Shown here: piece after piece, positions 9,232 to 59,090 of the stretch | Numbering within the stretch: the stretch's first letter is position 1 | Layout: each line of letters begins with the position of its first letter | DNA from: Paratrimastix pyriformis | Lineage: Eukaryota > Preaxostyla > Paratrimastigidae | Direction: 5' to 3' | DNA: 64,000 bases | NCBI GenBank assembly: GCA_027972325.1 | Contig: JAPMOS010000041.1 | Coordinates: forward strand, 228,407 to 292,406 | Translations under genes and position numbers: made by a program | Notes under the pieces: model-generated | Databases searched by the model: none | Told to the model about the DNA's origin: nothing | The model's input: only the letters and a program-made list of their open reading frames with translations

Positions 9232-9432
9232 ATGTGTGTGTGTGCGTGTGTGTGTGTGTGTCGTGTAAAGAAGGAACGAAGTAACGGGATAATAAAACAA
9301 AAACCAGAGAGGTAGAAGAGACAGCACGAATGTCACTGCACCCGTGGGCGAAGGAATCCCCTGTGGAGGGCGTTTGATAGGCTCGTTAGGGAGAGGACAG
9401 GGACCCCCACCAGGTGGTAGCAGCGAGTAGCG

Positions 9433-9434
<2 letters not shown>
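9232..9434 (+). repeat. Partial copy of TG-flanked unit B
   Basis: After a short (TG)n, the sequence TCGTGTAAAGAAGGAACGAA... up to the purine-rich stretch before 9435 matches the first part of unit B found at 10696-11261 and 12774-13316. It is truncated on its right by the next (TG)n tract. Confidence 0.75.

Positions 9435-9518
<84 letters not shown>
9435..9518 (+). repeat. (TG)42 microsatellite
   Basis: Uninterrupted TG dinucleotides for 84 bases. It directly precedes the tRNA-like sequence at 9522. Confidence 0.98.
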
Positions 9519-9521
<3 letters not shown>

Positions 9522-9523
<2 letters not shown>

Positions 9524-9600
9524 GGCGTGGCTCAGTGGTTAGAGCGCAACACTTGGAGCACCGGGGTCGCGGGTTCAATCCCGGTCAGACCCACACGCCG
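9522..9600 (+). ncRNA. tRNA-derived sequence, probable SINE head
   Basis: An A box (TGGCTCAGTGG) and a B box (GGTTCAATCC) are correctly spaced. A 7-bp acceptor stem pairs CGGCGTG (9523-9529) with CACGCCG (9594-9600), a D stem GCTC/GAGC is present, and the T stem closes as CGGG/CCCG. The anticodon stem does not form and there are extra bases between T arm and acceptor. This fits a tRNA-derived pol III promoter head of a SINE or a tRNA pseudogene, not a working tRNA. Confidence 0.7.
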
Positions 9601-9887
9601 TACCTGGGCTCTACATTCCGGAATATGGAGGATAAAAACCATCCGACCCTGCACTCGCGGGGACAGGACACCGGAGAGCCGCGCTCTGGCTCGGTTAGTC
9701 GGCCTTGAGCCGGCAAGACAGCTCAAATATCGGGAAGTCCTCATCCGAGGATGGGCCGACGCGCCAGAAATGGCGGCGTGAGAGATGAGAGCGGCTGTCG
9801 GTCGGGGTTCCCCCACCCCCGGCTTAAGGTTTCACCGAAAGTTCCCAAAGCTCAGGCGCCAGGAGGGCGACCTGGGCTTACTTTCGT
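9601..9887 (+). other. Central body between tRNA head and LINE-A tail
   Basis: This stretch follows the tRNA-like head and precedes the LINE-A-derived 3' part. It has no gene-like frame of its own. It would be the unrelated body of a tRNA/LINE chimeric SINE, or simply host DNA between two insertions. Confidence 0.4.

Positions 9888-10650
<763 letters not shown>

Positions 10651-10695
<45 letters not shown>
10651..10695 (+). repeat. (TG)n tract
   Basis: A 45-base TG tract links the LINE-A 3' UTR fragment to unit B. Confidence 0.97.
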
Positions 10696-10696
<1 letters not shown>

Positions 10697-11260
10697 GTGT
10701 GAAGGAACGAAGTAACGGGAAAATAAAACAAAACCAGAGAGGTAGAAGAGACAGCACGAATGTCACTGCACCCGTGGGCGAAGGAATCCCCTGTGGAGGG
10801 CGTTTGATAGGCTCGTTAGGGAGAGGACGGACCTGCCGTCGTGGCGTAATGCGGAGGGACCCCCACCAGGTGGTAGCAGCGAGTAGCGGCGCAAGGGGAT
10901 TTGCACAACCACCCACCACCAGATATAGTAGGAGAGCACGCACCCAACGAACGACCGGTCCATATGTCCAGTCCCTTCGGAGCGAATCGCACCCAACCAC
11001 CCCTTCACCACATCGGCCCGTCATGTGCATAAGTGAACATCGGCGCGCAACACCGAACCCGAAAAGCTTCGGGTGGGAACCCGGAGGCTCCCGTCCGCCG
11101 AAGCGGATAGCAGCCGAAGTAGGCCGCCAAGACCCGATGAGCATCGGGAGAGAGCCATGTGCACTCTCTGATCAAAGGACGCAGCCGGAGCTGCCTTGGT
11201 GTGCGATCCCCGAAATTCGGGGAGAGAGTCCGGAGACCCTCTATGTCCGACAGAACGGAC

Positions 11261-11261
<1 letters not shown>
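10696..11261 (+). repeat. Unit B: TG-flanked repeat with four hairpins
   Basis: About 565 bases bounded by (TG)n on both sides, nearly identical to 12774-13316. It holds four compact inverted repeats: 11058-11073 (CCCGAA/TTCGGG, loop AAGC), 11095-11106 (CCGC/GCGG, loop CGAA), 11133-11148 (CCCGAT/ATCGGG, loop GAGC) and 11208-11222 (CCCCGAA/TTCGGGG). No convincing ORF is seen. It always follows a LINE-A 3' end plus (TG)n, so it may be a 5' UTR of the LINE-A group or a separate element. Confidence 0.7.

Positions 11262-12437
<1,176 letters not shown>

Positions 12438-12530
<93 letters not shown>
12438..12530 (+). repeat. (TG)n microsatellite
   Basis: Ninety-odd bases of TG with one CG unit, between truncated unit C and a LINE-A 3' UTR. 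Confidence 0.97.
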
Positions 12531-12531
<1 letters not shown>

Positions 12532-12726
12532 CAGCACCCAGATCCACCGCCGGCCGCAGCCCCAAGTGGGTTTCTCCATCCCCCTACGACACCTTCACGG
12601 GTCGCCCTGATCCGCGCAGGGTGGGACGAGCCACGACAGCGCGATAGGAGAGGACGCCGCCAGTAAGATTTCGTGCGTGCGTTTTTTTCCTCTTAGCACT
12701 GTATACCCAACAGGCTCAAAGATCAT

Positions 12727-12728
<2 letters not shown>
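12531..12728 (+). mobile_element. LINE-A 3' UTR fragment
   Basis: A third short copy of the LINE-A 3' UTR (CCAGCACCCAGATCCACCG... AAAGATCATCA), followed by (TG)n at 12729-12773. Confidence 0.9.
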
Positions 12729-12773
<45 letters not shown>

Positions 12774-12774
<1 letters not shown>

Positions 12775-13315
12775 GTGTAAAAGAAGGAACGAAGTAACGG
12801 GAAAATAAAACAAAAACCAGAGGTGAAGAGACAGCACGAATGTCACTGCACCCGTGGGCGAAGGAATCCCCCTGTGGAGGGCGTTTGATAGGCTCGTTAG
12901 GGAGAGGACCTGCCGTCGTGGCGTAATGCGGAGGACCCCACCAGGTGGTAGCAGCGAGCGGCGCAGGATTTGCACAACCACCACCACCAGATATAACAGG
13001 AGAGCACACGCAACGAACGACCGGTCCATATGTCCAGTCCCTTCGGAGTCGCGCACCCAACCACCTTCACCACATCGGCCCGTCATGTGCATAAGTGAAC
13101 ATCGGCGCGCAACACCGAACCCGAAAAGCTTCGGGTGGGAACCCGGAGGCTCCCGTCCGCCGAAGCGGATAGCAGCCGAAGTAGGCCGCCAAGACCCGAT
13201 GAGCATCGGGAGAGCCATGCACTCTCTGATCAAAGGACGCAGCCGGAGCTGCCTTGGTGTGCGATCCCCGAAATTCGGGGAGAGTCCGAGACCCTCTATG
13301 TCCGACAGAACGGAC

Positions 13316-13316
<1 letters not shown>
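12774..13316 (+). repeat. Unit B, second long copy
   Basis: Near-identical to 10696-11261 with several small deletions; the four hairpins are kept (the first at 13120-13135). It is flanked by (TG)n and lies immediately upstream of LINE-A, separated by the (TG)n at 13317-13402. Confidence 0.75.

Positions 13317-13402
<86 letters not shown>
13317..13402 (+). repeat. (TG)43 microsatellite at the LINE-A 5' junction
   Basis: A pure TG tract of 86 bases that ends exactly where the LINE-A coding-like sequence starts. Confidence 0.97.
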
Positions 13403-13404
<2 letters not shown>

Positions 13405-13860
13405 GCTGCCGACCCCGTGATCGTCTACGCCAATCCCCCGCGCCCCGCGGCACGCCGTCCCCCCGGCGCCATCACTCCGCAACAGTGGGAGCCCCCTCGT
13501 CGTATACGCCCCCAGCATCCGGCAGCGCCTCGAGGGACAGCGGCGGGCGCCCCTCCCCCTTCGTCACACTGGCCGTCGGGGGCCAACAAGGGCCTACCTC
13601 CAACCCCAACCGGCATACTTTCAGCCTCAGCCCCAGCCCAGGGGCGGTGGAGGCCGCGCCTTTCGGGGCTAACCGCCCCGACAATCGGGAGGCCGGGGTC
13701 CCCCCCATGAGGGCCGCCACAACCAGGACCCCGCTGGAGGCAGCGGAAGGGGCGTGATCGAAAGTTCTCCGGCTTTCCCTCCTGCCCCGGGCGAGCCCCG
13801 CTTGTCTCCTGGCCTGTTCTCCCCTCCGCCGCAGGACCCACCACCCAACCCCCCCATTTA
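13403..13860 (+). CDS. LINE-A N-terminal low-complexity region
   Basis: Pro-rich coding-like sequence. In one frame near 13590-13665 it reads YLQPQPAYFQPQPQPRGGGG, typical of disordered, RNA-binding gag-like regions. The readable frame changes several times, so either ORF1 was a separate protein or the copy is frameshifted. No structured domain seen. Confidence 0.4.
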
Positions 13861-14013
13861 GCACTGGCGGGGTCGGGGCCCCTGGCGCCGGAGAGCCATG
13901 CCCCTATCCCCCCCGGCGACCCGGCCGCGGCCCGCGAGGACGACGATGCCCCGAGTGACGAGGCCCTCCAGCCCCGAGAGGCCGACGACCCGCGCGTCTG
14001 GGAAAGAGGCCCC

Positions 14014-14240
14014 TTCGTCTACATTCTGGTCGGGGCCCACGGACGGAGCTACGTGGGCGCTACCACAGACCAACGCGGCGCCTCGCCCAACACAACGGGG
14101 CTCGACCGGGGGGGCCCGGGCCACCCGACAGAATCGCCCTGGCGCCTGGTGGGACTGGCGGCCGGCCTCGCCTGCTGGCACGAGGCCATCGAGCTGGAGG
14201 CCGCTGTGAGGAACCCCCGCAGCCGGCCATGGGCAGCCGA
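14014..14240 (+). CDS. GIY-YIG endonuclease domain of LINE-A
   Basis: The main frame gives FVYILVGAHGRSYVGATTD, then PTESPWRLVGLAAGL and AIELEAAVR. In the neighbouring frame the middle reads DPTRRLAQHNGARPGG. Together this is the Slx1/Penelope-type GIY-YIG pattern: Y-I-L, S-Y-V-G-A-T-x-D-P, R-R-L-x-Q-H-N-G, GG, PW-L-V, and the catalytic Glu in IELE. Two compensating single-base shifts (near 14068 and in the G-run near 14108) separate the frames, so the domain is decayed but its parent is clear. It lies directly upstream of the RT, unlike canonical Penelope elements where it follows the RT. Confidence 0.75.
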
Positions 14241-14574
14241 CATTCACCGGGAGCTCTCGGCCACTGGCAGCCTCGAGGTTCTCCGACAACTCGCACCGAG
14301 ACGGGGAGCCCGCGCCTACCGCCACGACATCCGGGGGCCGCTGGACTGAGCTCACGCAGGGGACCCGAACCGCCCCGAGGACCCGCGCCGACAAGGAGGA
14401 GGCCCAGGCGCGCTTCATCTGGGTGATGGCCGCGACCGACCCTGACGAGGCATCCGCCCGGCTGGAGGCAGGCCTGCGGCCGGAGGAGCCACCGTGTGAA
14501 GGGCCACACCAGGGAAAGGCCACCCCACCCCGCCGCCCCAACGGGAGATCGCTCTCCGCCAGGTCAAGGAGGCC

Positions 14575-17500
14575 ATGACCCGGGACGGACTCAGCGTGCG
14601 CCGGCCCAGAGGCGACGCACCCGCCCTCTGGCGCGCGTGGGACAAGCTCCGCAAGGGGCGGGACGAGTCCCGCCGCGCAGCCGCCGCCTCGCAACTCCAC
14701 CTTTTCTTCACCGACCGACGTCGACTCCACCGCCTCCTCCTGGCCCCGACACGGTGCACCTGCCCGATCGCCCCGGCGGAACTGCGGCGCCACCATCTGG
14801 CAGAGGCGGCGGCGACCCCACCCAGCACCAACCCAATCTGGCCGGAGCTGGCCCCACCTCCCCCGCTCGCCGAGACCTCCACCCCGGCCGAGCAGCCCTT
14901 CTCGGCCACCGAAATCGCCGAGGCCATCCACAACGCCGACCCCCACTCAGCCCCGGCGCCAGCCGACGCGGCCACGATCCGGGACATCAGACGACTGCTG
15001 GACGAAGGCGAGGAGCTGCGTGCCCGGGACGGCCCCCCCTCCCCGTTCATGGCCGCCCTGCTCCACCTCTTCAACATGTGCCTGGCCGAAGGAACAGTCC
15101 CGCGCAGCTGGGCCCGGGCCGTGGCCGTCCTCATCCACAAGAAGGGGAAGCCGCCGGAGGAGATCCGGAGCTGGCGCCATGTGGTCCTCACGGCCCAACT
15201 CTCGCGAATCTACGGAGCCCTGCTCTCGCGCCGCCTCGAGGACTTCCTGCTCAGGGCCGGCCGGATCAGTGGGGCACAGGCGGGTTTCATCCGGGGCCAG
15301 GAGAGCCACTTCTCCGTGCTCCGCTTGCAGGCCTGGATCACCAGGGCCCGCCGTGAGCGCCCCCCTTTCGCGGGCGTACTTTTTCTCGATATCACCAATG
15401 CTTTCGGGACCCTGGGGCGGGACGCCCTGGAGGGCAGTCTCCGGTGGGGTGGGGTCCCACCGACACTGCGGCGCGCCATCATGGGCACTTACCGCGACAT
15501 TGAGATGTGCCTGCCCTTTGAAGGAGAAGCCGGCGCCCCCATCCCGCTGGGCCGTGGCACTCGGCAGGGGGACCCCTTGAGTCCAACTGTCTTCATTCTC
15601 GCGCTGGAGCCGCTACTACATGCGCTCTCCCGGATCGATGGCCTCCTCGTTTTGGCATTTGCCGATGACCTAGCCATGGCCGCGCGCGACAAGGAGGCCC
15701 TGACCCGAGCCTTGCGAGTGATCGCGGAGTTCGGGGCCTGGTCGGGCCTTCACCTGAACCTCCCCAAGTGCGCCGCCCTGGTGGCCAGCCAGGGCCGCCA
15801 GTGCCCACCTGCGGACGTGGACATCTGCGCGCCGGCCGGCCGGATCCCCCCACTGGCCCTGGGCGGGACGTTCCGTTACCTTGGGGTCGAGGTGGGCTGG
15901 GAGCTGGACTCGACGCCGGCGCTGGAGGCCGCCCGGATCGAATTCGAAGCTCGCCTCACCGCCATCGGCACATCCCACCTCCCCCCGCTGGCCAAGATCG
16001 ATACGCTGGCCTCCCTTGCCTTGCCCGTCCTGCAGCATGTCCTCGCTGTCTGCCCCGCCCCCCCAAGCTGGATGGCTGGGGTCCAACGGAGCATCCGGGA
16101 CTCGTGCAACAACTGGCTATTGAACCCCCGAGAGATGGCGCCCACCCGGAAACGCTGGTGCCTGCCGGGCATGCCGGAGCTCCTGCTCTTCACTCCTGCC
16201 GCGCATGGGGGGCTGGGGGCCCCCCGCTTGGACCGGCTCGAGGAGACCCTCAAACTCGGACTGATCGGCCGGATCCTGATACCACCGACCGACCCCGCGG
16301 CTCGCGAGCACTGGGCCGCGGCAGCAGTCCCCCTGGCAGAGGAGTTCCGGCACCGAGAGCACCACGGGGGACACGAGGCACCGGCCAACAACTGGGACCT
16401 GTGGACCTGGGTGGCCTGGTACGAAGACCGACGGAAGATCCGCATCGGTCGCATAGCTGGACGATGGGCGGTCCAGCAGCGGACCATCCGGGCATCCAAG
16501 CTCTTTTCCCGAAAGGCACCGGAGCGCCACCCGGCCCTCAACAAGCTGACGGAGCTCCAGACGTACCTCTGCTGGCTGAGCACGGTCCCGCGAAATGCGG
16601 CGCTCCTCTTCACGGACGGATCGTTCCAACAAGGACAGGGCGGCGGCGCCGCGGCAGTGCTCATGACCCGAGACCGGACGACCGCGGCCGCCGTGCGCCT
16701 CCCACAGGCGCGGGGGAACGGCGACGCGGAGCTAGCCGCGCTGGAGCTCGCCGCGGCCACCATCAAGTCCGCCCGGGCCGACGGGCGCCTCCTCCCACAC
16801 CAGCCGGTGGCCATCTGTGCGGACAGCCAGTATGCCCTGGGCGCTGCGGCGGGGTGGACGCGAATCCAGTTTGCGCACGCGCGGGTGCTGGCCCTCCGGG
16901 AGGCCCTCCAAGTGGCCAAGCCTGTGGTCCTCCGCTACGTCCCGGCGCACGTGGACCGGATCCCGGGGGCCCTGGTGATCCCCTCCATCCCTGGCAACCA
17001 GCTGGCCGACCGCCTGGCTGAGGCGGCGCGCCTCGGGGGACCACCAGACAGAGGGGGCATCCAGGCCACATTCCCAACACAAGAGCTTTGCGGCCCAATC
17101 GGCCCCGCCCAGTGGCCCTCAGGCCCAGCCGAGTCCCCATTGCCCTTCTCGCACAAATTCCTCACACGCTCACTGCTCACGACCCTGGCAAGGCTGGCCC
17201 ACGAGGAGGAGGAGGCACGCGACTGGCTGGCGTGTCCGTACGCCTACCACCCACTTGAACCCATCTCGGCCCGGGTCAGCAACACCTGGTGGACCAGGCG
17301 CGGCGAGCCACTCTCCACGGTGCGCAAGCTGTGTGCAGCCAAGTGCCAGGCCTTCTGGGGGGTCAATCAGGTCAAGGCCCGGCTCGGGGGGGGCCGGGGA
17401 TCCGCGCTCTGTCCATTCGGGTGCGGGACCGTGGAGACCCAGAGCCACCTCCTGGGGGGCTGCCGCCACTTCCGGCTATTCTATGTGAAGCGCCATGACC

Positions 17501-17925
17501 AGGTGCTCCGGGCCTTGGCCAGGGCCCTCACGGCCGCCGGCCTGAAGGTGGTCGTCCACGACTCGGCAGCCAACGCACGCAAGGCAACCCAGATCCCGGA
17601 GGAGCTCCAGGCGCGAATCCCGGCCCACCTGCGCCACCTCCGACCCGACCTGCTGGTGTGCCCCGGCGAGGGCCGGAGACCCCCACTGTCATCGAGCTGG
17701 CCGTCACCACTGCCGTGCGGGACGAGGACCTGGCAAAAGCGCGGGACGGGAAGCTCGCCCAGTATCGGGGCTACTGCCAGGCGGCGGGGTTCGACAACCG
17801 AGCCCTTCTCTTCGGGGCCACCGGGTGCATCCCGGGACAGTCGGTTCGGGACCTCCTCCAGCTCGTCCCTGGCACTGAACACAAGACGCTCTGCGAGGCC
17901 CTGCGGAGGATCAGCGGGGACTTGA
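14575..17925 (+). CDS. LINE-A polyprotein: RT, RNase H, zinc knuckle and RLE-like nuclease
   Basis: A single 1116-codon frame. The RT shows KKGKPPEEIRSWRHVVLTAQLSRIY, AQAGFIRGQ, LFLDITNAFGTL (motif A), GTRQGDPLSPTVF (motif B) and LVLAFADDLAMAA (motif C), all LINE-type. RNase H follows with LLFTDGSFQQG, DAELAALEL, ICADSQYAL and PAHV...GNQLADRLAEAA (D-E-D-H-D pattern). Then CPFGCGTVETQSHLLGGC (CCHC knuckle) and, about 60 residues later, LRPDLLV. After a one-base frame change near 17673 the next frame gives VIELAVTTAVRDEDLAKARD and KLAQYR. PD, acidic residue and K-x-x-x-Y spacing follow the R2 restriction-like endonuclease. The readable protein ends at 18062 in that second frame. Confidence 0.88.
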   Translation: MTRDGLSVRRPRGDAPALWRAWDKLRKGRDESRRAAAASQLHLFFTDRRRLHRLLLAPTRCTCPIAPAELRRHHLAEAAATPPSTNPIWPELAPPPPLAETSTPAEQPFSATEIAEAIHNADPHSAPAPADAATIRDIRRLLDEGEELRARDGPPSPFMAALLHLFNMCLAEGTVPRSWARAVAVLIHKKGKPPEEIRSWRHVVLTAQLSRIYGALLSRRLEDFLLRAGRISGAQAGFIRGQESHFSVLRLQAWITRARRERPPFAGVLFLDITNAFGTLGRDALEGSLRWGGVPPTLRRAIMGTYRDIEMCLPFEGEAGAPIPLGRGTRQGDPLSPTVFILALEPLLHALSRIDGLLVLAFADDLAMAARDKEALTRALRVIAEFGAWSGLHLNLPKCAALVASQGRQCPPADVDICAPAGRIPPLALGGTFRYLGVEVGWELDSTPALEAARIEFEARLTAIGTSHLPPLAKIDTLASLALPVLQHVLAVCPAPPSWMAGVQRSIRDSCNNWLLNPREMAPTRKRWCLPGMPELLLFTPAAHGGLGAPRLDRLEETLKLGLIGRILIPPTDPAAREHWAAAAVPLAEEFRHREHHGGHEAPANNWDLWTWVAWYEDRRKIRIGRIAGRWAVQQRTIRASKLFSRKAPERHPALNKLTELQTYLCWLSTVPRNAALLFTDGSFQQGQGGGAAAVLMTRDRTTAAAVRLPQARGNGDAELAALELAAATIKSARADGRLLPHQPVAICADSQYALGAAAGWTRIQFAHARVLALREALQVAKPVVLRYVPAHVDRIPGALVIPSIPGNQLADRLAEAARLGGPPDRGGIQATFPTQELCGPIGPAQWPSGPAESPLPFSHKFLTRSLLTTLARLAHEEEEARDWLACPYAYHPLEPISARVSNTWWTRRGEPLSTVRKLCAAKCQAFWGVNQVKARLGGGRGSALCPFGCGTVETQSHLLGGCRHFRLFYVKRHDQVLRALARALTAAGLKVVVHDSAANARKATQIPEELQARIPAHLRHLRPDLLVCPGEGRRPPLSSSWPSPLPCGTRTWQKRGTGSSPSIGATARRRGSTTEPFSSGPPGASRDSRFGTSSSSSLALNTRRSARPCGGSAGT

Positions 17926-18062
17926 CGCGGAGCATACTGGCACTGTTCCTCATGCGCGACAGTGACCGCAGGGACCGAGCCAGCACCCAGATCCACCGCC
18001 CGGCCGCAGCCCCAAGTGGATTTCTCCATCCCCCCCTACGACACCTTCACGGGTCGCCCTGA

Positions 18063-18181
18063 TCCGCGCAGGGGTGGGACGAGCCACGACAGCGCGATAG
18101 GAGGAGGACGCCGCCAGTAAGATTTCGTGCGTGCGTTTTTTTTCCTCTTAGCACTGTATACCCAACAGGCTCAAAGATCAT

Positions 18182-18182
<1 letters not shown>
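18063..18182 (+). other. LINE-A 3' UTR
   Basis: About 120 bases shared by all LINE-A 3' fragments, with GACGCCGCCAGTAAGATTTC, a short T-run, TTAGCACTGTATACCC and the terminal AAAGATCATCA before (TG)n at 18184-18240. Confidence 0.85.
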
Positions 18183-18240
<58 letters not shown>

Positions 18241-18241
<1 letters not shown>

Positions 18242-18370
18242 GAGTAAAGAAGGAACGAAGTAACGGGAAAATAAAACAAAAACCAGAGAGGTCGAAGAGA
18301 CAGCACGAATGTCACTGCACCCGTGGGCGAAGGAATCCCCTGTGGAGGGCGTTTGATAGGCTCGTTAGGG

Positions 18371-18404
<34 letters not shown>
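18241..18404 (+). repeat. Truncated unit B followed by (TG)n
   Basis: After the LINE-A (TG)n, the first about 130 bases of unit B recur and are cut by another (TG)n at 18373-18403. The first bases of unit B (TCGTGTAAAGAAGGA) then appear once more at 18404-18418. Confidence 0.8.
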
Positions 18405-18405
<1 letters not shown>

Positions 18406-18437
18406 GTGTAAAGAAGGAGTGTGTGTGTGAAGGGGGG

Positions 18438-58120: not shown

Positions 58121-59090
58121 GAGTTTCACCGAAAAAACCCTTTGGGACATGTCGGAACACCGATCCGAAAAATTCGATTTCCATTGAAATTCCATACGAG
58201 TCGTATGGATTTTAGTACCCCCGACTAACTTCGGGATAGTGGTTCTGATGACGGAAAACGTCGAGTTTCACCGAAAAAACCCTTTGGGACATGTCGGAAC
58301 ACCGATCCGAAAAATACGATTTCCATTGAAATTCCATACGAGTCGTATGGATTTTAGTACCCCCGACTAACTTCGGGATAGTGGTTCTGATGACGGAAAA
58401 CGTCGAGTTTCACCGAAAAAACCCTTTGGGACATGTCGGAACACCGATCCGAAAAATACGATTTCCATTGAAATTCCATACGAGTCGTATGGATTTTAGT
58501 ACCCCCGACTAACTTCGGGATAGTGGTTCTGATGACGGAAAACGTCGAGTTTCACCGAAAAAACCCTTTGGGACATGTCGGAACACCGATCCGAAAAATA
58601 CGATTTCCATTGAAATTCCATACGAGTCGTATGGATTTTAGTACCCCCGACTAACTTCGGGATAGTGGTTCTGATGACGGAAAACGTCGAGTTTCACCGA
58701 AAAAACCCTTTGGGACATGTCGGAACACCGATCCGAAAAATACGATTTCCATTGAAATTCCATACGAGTCGTATGGATTTTAGTACCCCCGACTAACTTC
58801 GGGATAGTGGTTCTGATGACGAAAAACGTCGAGTTTCACCGAAAAAACCCTTTGGGACATGTCCCGATCCGAAAAATACGATTTCCATTGAAATTCCATA
58901 CGAGTCGTATGGATTTTAGTACCCCCGACTAACTTCGGGATAGTGGTTCTGATGACGGAAAACGTCGAGTTTTTCACCGAAAAAACCCTTTGGGACATGT
59001 CGGAACACCGATCCGAAAAATTCGATTTCCATTGAAATTCCATACGAGTCGTATGGATTTTAGTACCCCCGACTAACTTCGGGATAGTGG
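58121..59090 (+). repeat. 142-bp tandem satellite, seven copies
   Basis: The unit starting GAGTTTCACCGAAAAAACCC begins at 58121, 58263, 58405, 58547, 58689, 58831 and 58967. The first six steps are 142 bp except the last, which is shortened by a small deletion. Each unit carries the palindrome CCATACGAGTCGTATGG. Copies are almost identical. AT content is clearly above that of the surroundings. The array starts just upstream of the methyltransferase gene's start. Confidence 0.95.

Follow-up and report, generated by a model that had tools for sequence, protein, structure and literature searches.

Can a reverse transcriptase (RT) of the kind found in long interspersed nuclear elements (LINEs) carry, in one protein, both an N-terminal GIY-YIG nuclease and a C-terminal restriction-like endonuclease (RLE) and, if so, from where was the GIY-YIG domain obtained and what could it contribute to integration? 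The question is raised by an element at positions 13403–18183 of a 64,000-nt stretch of Paratrimastix pyriformis DNA (the whole of which is referred to as the window; positions 228407–292406 of contig JAPMOS010000041.1, here C344, in the assembly GCA_027972325.1 of 56 Mb and 495 contigs), in which a sequence-only reading had noticed motifs of these domains and had proposed a Dualen-like ancestor whose apurinic/apyrimidinic endonuclease (APE) was replaced by GIY-YIG. We lean, if only slightly, towards regarding it as a microsatellite-targeted RLE retrotransposon without long terminal repeats (non-LTR) that has acquired a cellular SLX1-type GIY-YIG domain at the N-terminus of its polymerase. The domain order, the single frame, the conserved catalytic residues of nucleases and polymerase, and the insertion of family A (to which the window copy belongs) into (TG)n are established at the level of the DNA and its translation.

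The window copy has the following parts:

13317–13402, + strand: (TG)43 tract on the 5' side of the insertion.
13403–18183, + strand: family A non-LTR retrotransposon copy, frame-broken and 5'-truncated relative to the copy at C311 (sequence comparison).
14014–14217, + strand: GIY-YIG (SLX1-type) domain, with a mid-domain frame change here and a frame open into the RT in the copies at C1, C266 and C311.
14500–17922, + strand: extended open frame that covers RT, RNase H, the zinc knuckle and the first RLE half.
15133–15891, + strand: reverse transcriptase (PF00078 match).
16594–17028, + strand: RNase H (PF00075 match).
17410–17463, + strand: CPFGC...H...C zinc knuckle.
17641–17768, + strand: RLE core (PD...E...K..Y), across two frames here and in one frame at C441.
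17959–18183, + strand: 3' end of the open reading frame (ORF) and 3' untranslated region, with the final letters ...AAAGATCATCA.
18184–18240, + strand: (TG)28 tract directly 3' of the element.

The copy is called 5'-truncated because the C311 copy extends further upstream, and (TG)n adjoins it at both ends. All motifs listed by the sequence-only reading are present on the + strand, distributed over two frames of a damaged copy. One frame holds FVYILVG (14014–14034), YVGATTD (14050–14070), IELEAAVRNP (14188–14217), TRQGDPLSP (15559), FADD (15658), TDGS (16609), CPFGCG (17410) and RPDLLV (17641), while RRLAQHNG (14076) and VIELAV...KLAQYR (17688–17768) lie in a different one. The frame is broken within the GIY-YIG domain and within the RLE core (between 17658 and 17688), and stops separate GIY-YIG from RT. 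When the frames were run separately against Pfam, matches to RVT_1 (4.9e-23) and RNase H (3.2e-11) were obtained, and none for the GIY-YIG piece; judged on this copy only, the sequence-only reading would have failed its own condition of a GIY-YIG profile match, with motifs matched by eye as the sole basis for that domain.

A protein search of the same assembly listed 77 matches (43 of 729 candidates scored), and searches with the GIY-YIG-to-RT proteins of families B, C and A listed 56, 57 and 67 (55 of 656, 33 of 3018 and 50 of 433 candidates scored, respectively); these counts are lower bounds. The relatives comprise near copies (family A) and proteins that match almost the entire query at 34–37% identity: families B and C, together with C333, a member of family D by its 96% DNA identity to C476 over 4.2 kb. 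Across the aligned proteins, family B shares 31–33% identity with A, C and D; between C and D the value is 57–58%. Among the matches listed, GIY-YIG runs into RT as one stop-free match at 11 loci of all four families: C1, C311 and C266 (family A), C484 and C458 (family B, the latter without the first GIY-YIG strand), C179, C172, C132, C369 and C307 (family C) and C476 (family D). The same order is kept, with stops, at further loci including C344 (the window), C245, C222, C73, C463, C481 and C418. The possible objection that GIY-YIG is not collinear with the RT in other copies fails because the two share a frame at those 11 loci, and chance or an assembly chimera was ruled out on the same architecture.

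Four families bear out the proposed one-protein design, in which a LINE-type RT has GIY-YIG on its N-terminal side and RLE on its C-terminal side, and two of them have full single ORFs: 1744 aa in family B (C484) and 1519 aa in family C (C179), each encoding GIY-YIG, RT (RQGxxLSP, ADD), RNase H (TDGS), CCHC zinc knuckle and RLE in that order. Pfam matches within one ORF were GIY-YIG 6.7e-11, RVT_1 2.4e-27 and RNase H 1.5e-5 (25.6 bits, cut-off 25.8) for C484; GIY-YIG 3e-4 (21.4 bits, cut-off 22.6), RVT_1 1.6e-20 and RNase H 4.2e-6 for C179; and GIY-YIG 4e-6 and RVT_1 2.7e-21 for a 983-aa ORF of family D (C476). In family A, GIY-YIG (4.2e-9 at C1, 1.7e-9 at C266) lies in the same ORF as RVT_1, and RNase H, knuckle and both RLE halves fall within one 753-aa frame at C441. 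A profile match to GIY-YIG is thus lacking in the window copy and found in copies of A, B, C and D, that of C being below the cut-off.

A GIY-YIG domain in a retroelement had implied a link to Penelope, and this part of the sequence-only reading was not supported. The A–D domain has the fold and the catalytic Tyr, Arg, His and Glu of the GIY-YIG superfamily, and when that of family B was compared with the Protein Data Bank (PDB) by phmmer, the seven sequences found up to an E-value of 10 were five SLX1 and two UPF0213 proteins, the best being 7wme (At-HIGLE, 2.6e-12) and the UPF0213 proteins following at 4.5e-7 and 0.22. A profile of eight rows (families A–D and a further domain, L066, at C135) matched SLX1 at 9.5e-19. 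Similarly, an AlphaFold2 model of the domain preceding the RT (163 residues, mean predicted confidence (pLDDT) 73) returned SLX1/HIGLE structures as its top 11 PDB fold matches, all with a probability of 1.00. Smith-Waterman scores of the A–D domains were 83–146 against five SLX1 proteins, the host's own among them, and 29–38 against one Penelope-like GIY-YIG of the same genome, by which a Penelope origin was ruled out with one such element compared; with the C135 domain added, the ranges became 75–146 and 24–38. The Penelope-like domain is itself distant from SLX1 (34–48). By sequence and modelled fold the GIY-YIG domain is therefore assigned to the SLX1 lineage, and the retrotransposon protein is not itself an SLX1. 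A single capture is likely because the architecture is common to A–D, while in a GIY-YIG tree of 74 columns A–D were not one clade and no branch was well supported.

Three further sets of GIY-YIG loci were observed. L066 (C135:484700–485200) is another SLX1-like domain, perhaps of a fifth family. L059 (C457:61800–67500), which we take to be a Chlamys-type element, is Penelope-like, with GIY-YIG (Pfam 0.0074) N-terminal to an RT called by eye. Another GIY-YIG protein, often a 254-aa frame, occurs with near-equal scores at about 30 places (e.g. C118, C242); three of its loci (L040, L041, L044) have a G+C content of 0.36 in this GC-rich genome, and these low-G+C loci are perhaps integrated virus-like elements.

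The GIY-YIG domain appears to be kept as a nuclease. Invariant in all eight rows are the first Tyr, the Gly of YxG, Arg35, QHNG, GGA, Thr50, Trp56, Glu75 and Pro81, as is the His of the nuclease core, and the second Tyr is kept in seven (the exception being L066). The family B stretch is only 28–34% identical to those of A, C and D, yet the catalytic Tyr, Arg, His and Glu are unchanged. Constraint was assessed as the ratio of non-synonymous to synonymous differences (pN/pS) from pairwise counts within families. For family A this ratio was 0.18 in GIY-YIG (10 copies, 45 non-independent pairs) and 0.09 in the RT, and the single pair of family C showed 0 non-synonymous against 10 synonymous differences in GIY-YIG. 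Constraint on the domain is visible in these two families, B being uninformative and D silent.

At the other end of the protein, the sequence-only claim of an R2-like nuclease stands. The P, D, K and Y of the RLE and the D, E, D and H of RNase H are invariant in six rows from families A–D, and the C-terminal CCHC knuckle with a PD-E/D-K-Y nuclease places the elements in the RLE group. A C-terminal profile matched RNase H structures (2hb5, 8.8e-6) and residues 884–1075 of R2Bm (8gh6, 1.6e-4). The AlphaFold2 model of this region was poor overall (pLDDT 51) and better over the RLE part, and its two best fold matches were R2Tg (5.9e-4) and the R2 of Platysternon (4.2e-3). Between the two nucleases the RT is LINE-type, with RVT_1 found in all four families, and family A additionally shows the LINE trait of 5' truncation with a shared 3' end. 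Compared with PDB chains, the family B RT matched R2 best (1.7e-29) and then L1 ORF2 (4.6e-19), so it is not of the Penelope/telomerase type.

Relatives were also sought outside this genome. Viral contigs gave 115 pattern matches and no relatives, and prokaryote genome contigs gave 69 pattern matches and one relative, L068 (PIVK01000096.1), in which no GIY-YIG was seen by eye. This contig is filed as a Rhodospirillales bacterium and carries what looks like an RLE non-LTR retrotransposon, for which reason it may be eukaryotic contamination. Within the P. pyriformis assembly, L031:2–2866, upstream of the polymerase frame in family B, is a long open stretch containing a (CAG)n run; it may be ORF1 of that family, and Pfam gave weak low-complexity matches only. 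A plain photosynthetic alga was rejected as the host, since a search of the assembly for chlorophyll a/b-binding proteins returned 0, a count from which introns could have concealed some.

A further property, absent from the earlier reading, is the insertion target. Exact 3' ends were counted by 21-mer, with divergent ends excluded. The family A 3' end, ...AAAGATCATCA, is followed by (TG)n: in the loci examined, 17 of 18 unique exact ends have (TG)4 or longer within the next 40 nt and the remaining one a decayed TG-rich run, against a background of 0.36% of + strand positions in the rest of the window. All four exact ends in the window run into (TG)n, one of them being counted among the 18. 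Genome-wide there are at least 79 exact ends, 37 of which are immediately followed by a perfect (TG)5; those read among the other 42 (C266, C8:51846, C124, C476) have (TG)n with a small offset or in decayed form. On the 5' side, truncated copies without the 5' head described below begin in TG-rich sequence (L003, L019 and a pair from the window) or, for L013, in (CA)n, and three further truncated 5' ends, at the edge of their locus, are uninformative. The 3' ends of L033 (family C) and L057 (family D) enter (TGA)n and that of L034 (family D) does not, while in family B four copies have a short (CT)n run at the end. Because the ends of B, C and D differ, insertion flanked by (TG)n is claimed for family A only.

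How the two nucleases might share the work is suggested by R2 and by SLX1. Passages of PMC6895275 describe a 4-way branched intermediate of R2 that is cleaved to prime second-strand synthesis, and an excerpt of PMC9071465 reports that the plant SLX1-lineage enzyme HIGLE cuts branched DNA without SLX4. In the proposed sequence of events the element would be transcribed and translated as one protein, which would bind (TG)n; the RLE would nick one strand and the freed 3' end would prime cDNA synthesis by target-primed reverse transcription (TPRT), the R2 mechanism; RNase H would clear the RNA template; and the SLX1-like domain would cut either the second strand or a branched intermediate of 4-way or flapped form, allowing second-strand synthesis to start. 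RLE-first TPRT is assumed because the RLE and the RT type are common with R2, and the SLX1-like domain most likely makes the branched or second-strand cut because R2 has a 4-way intermediate and SLX1-lineage enzymes cut branched DNA. That these families form an undescribed non-LTR group with its own SLX1-like resolvase, in which one protein makes the first-strand nick by its RLE and the resolution or second-strand cut by GIY-YIG, is a tentative proposal to which we give somewhat less than an even chance.

Several observations weigh against a captured SLX1-type nuclease working in an R2-like RLE element. The RING domain of SLX1 is absent from A–D, since no CxxC pair was found in the 236–296 aa between GIY-YIG and RT in the one copy per family checked. 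The acidic RLE residue is Glu in A and B, and Asp replaces it in C and D. Selection on GIY-YIG gave a pN/pS of 1.02 in family B, from summed counts of 15 and 5 differences, which are not enough for a judgement, and no differences among three copies of family D. A second nuclease is dispensable in principle because, in passages of PMC6895275, the R2 RLE alone makes both cuts, and an excerpt of PMC10584689 reports a negligible effect of human SLX1 loss on LINE-1 movement. Finally, a small RT tree separated A–D from the other rows by a weakly supported branch (60/98), with L068 added they were not one clade (two changes needed), and once one long row was removed, R2 grouped with the in-genome L1 rows rather than with A–D (98/96). 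These three trees are unfit to choose among Dualen, R2 or other clades because of few references, long branches and unlike compositions, and they do not show kinship of A–D with R2.

Comparison with known systems sets the architecture apart. Like R2, NeSL, HERO, CRE and R4, the elements have a C-terminal CCHC knuckle and RLE and an RT whose best PDB match is R2, and family A, like R2-type elements, inserts into one kind of repeat; they differ in their N-terminal GIY-YIG and RNase H, as well as in the RT trees, which do not group them with R2. To our knowledge, R2 has neither GIY-YIG nor RNase H. With Penelope-like elements, whose type with an N-terminal GIY-YIG is Chlamys, A–D share GIY-YIG and RT in one protein, but the RT is LINE-type and accompanied by RNase H and RLE, and the GIY-YIG resembles SLX1 and is distant from the single Penelope-like domain compared. 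SLX1 and HIGLE share the sequence and fold of this domain, whereas A–D have no RING and are fused to a retroelement polymerase. Dualen/RandI likewise combines two endonucleases (APE and RLE) with RNase H in one element, as reported in passages of PMC4640811; in A–D the second nuclease is an SLX1-type GIY-YIG, and no Pfam match to APE (Exo_endo_phos) was found in the ORFs scanned up to an E-value of 1. By its domains the element is neither a Dualen nor a Penelope-like element. Togen, a group of (TG)n-specific elements of fish, resembles family A as an RLE-kin element inserted in (TG)n, and differs in its hosts and in that GIY-YIG is not mentioned in the relevant passages of its description (PMC4640811). 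Among retroelements, an excerpt of PMC1564403 places GIY-YIG in Penelope; the GIY-YIG and LINE parts of a construct described from shrimp proved unlinked according to its authors (PMC3849965, in part); and 'GIY' is absent from the text of PMC5348765 and PMC12503042. Among the entries listed by literature searches, which were read as titles and abstract openings, cover part of the papers matched and do not include Repbase, there was no LINE with GIY-YIG and RLE, or with SLX1. On this evidence, these elements, as RLE LINEs that carry an additional nuclease from a different lineage, represent a domain architecture new to non-LTR retrotransposons.

It may be asked whether GIY-YIG replaced APE in a Dualen-like ancestor, as the sequence-only reading held, or joined an RLE element like R2, NeSL or HERO. 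RNase H, RLE and a second nuclease do amount to the Dualen plan (passages of PMC4640811), but the missing APE match in the ORFs scanned, small RT trees that lack a Dualen reference and give no stable position, and the fact that no APE-and-RLE element was noticed in this genome (only two APE-element stretches, of 7.5 and 6.5 kb, being read by eye) make this ancestry less likely than not. An exchange of roles, in which GIY-YIG makes the first (TG)n nick, as in Penelope-like elements, and the RLE the second cut, is unlikely: it would agree with the N-terminal position, the same as that of APE, the first-nick nuclease of APE LINEs, with the intact catalytic residues, and with the Asp in the RLE of C and D, but the closest relatives identified are SLX1 enzymes, which are structure-specific, and not homing or Penelope nucleases, and RLE elements already target microsatellites (passages of PMC4640811). 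Retention of GIY-YIG merely as a DNA-binding or regulatory module is very unlikely, given the catalytic residues conserved despite the divergence of family B and the constraint in A and C, even if the domain is broken in many copies (as other domains are) and constraint is not visible in B and D. That a GIY-YIG element merely adjoins a LINE, as the stops in the window copy might suggest, has practically no chance in view of the order and frame common to the 11 loci and the single ORFs of B and C.

If the preferred reading of an RLE element with an acquired SLX1-type nuclease is true, LINEs would once more have captured a repair-type nuclease of the cell, in addition to APE and again at the N-terminus. 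It is an open question by what route LINEs finish integrating once the first nick has been made, and for R2, with a single nuclease for both cuts, so is the part that binds the 4-way junction (PMC6895275, in part). In an element with an added branched-DNA nuclease the two steps would be separable by single active-site mutants, and a protein inserting into (TG)n might, speculatively, serve as a tool.

The surroundings of the window copy are themselves a stack of at least six insertions in (TG)n (9233–18435), within a window whose G+C content is 0.55–0.70 in 29 of 32 2-kb bins. They include, besides that copy, three with the family A 3' end:

9519–10217, + strand: derivative, within (TG)n, whose 5' head has A and B boxes resembling those of tRNA genes (by eye) and is joined to the final ~330 nt of family A.
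10455–10650, + strand: family A 3' end, truncated on its 5' side and flanked by (TG)n tracts.
12530–12728, + strand: a further family A 3' end, likewise 5'-truncated and flanked by (TG)n tracts.

A unit of ~540 nt, present at 12779–13316 and 10701–11261 and ending ...ACAGAACGGACT before (TG)n, is probably a non-autonomous (TG)n-targeting element. The 5' head (~350 nt, at 9519–9883 in the window) also occurs at L002, L006, L007, L010, L029, L033 and L034, and precedes both a family A copy (L002, at C311) and one of family C (L033, at C179). In six copies, five from A and one from D, its constant edge, ...TTACTTTCG, meets the element at a different position each time, a pattern resembling a switch of the RT from truncated cDNA to a single short RNA; the idea that all joins fall at a TCC triplet was dropped after inspection of the joins. 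An Rfam search of 9400–14100 gave eight matches, all below the gathering score and none credible. Elsewhere in the window, positions 58121–59090 hold about seven tandem copies of a 142-nt unit with 97% matches.

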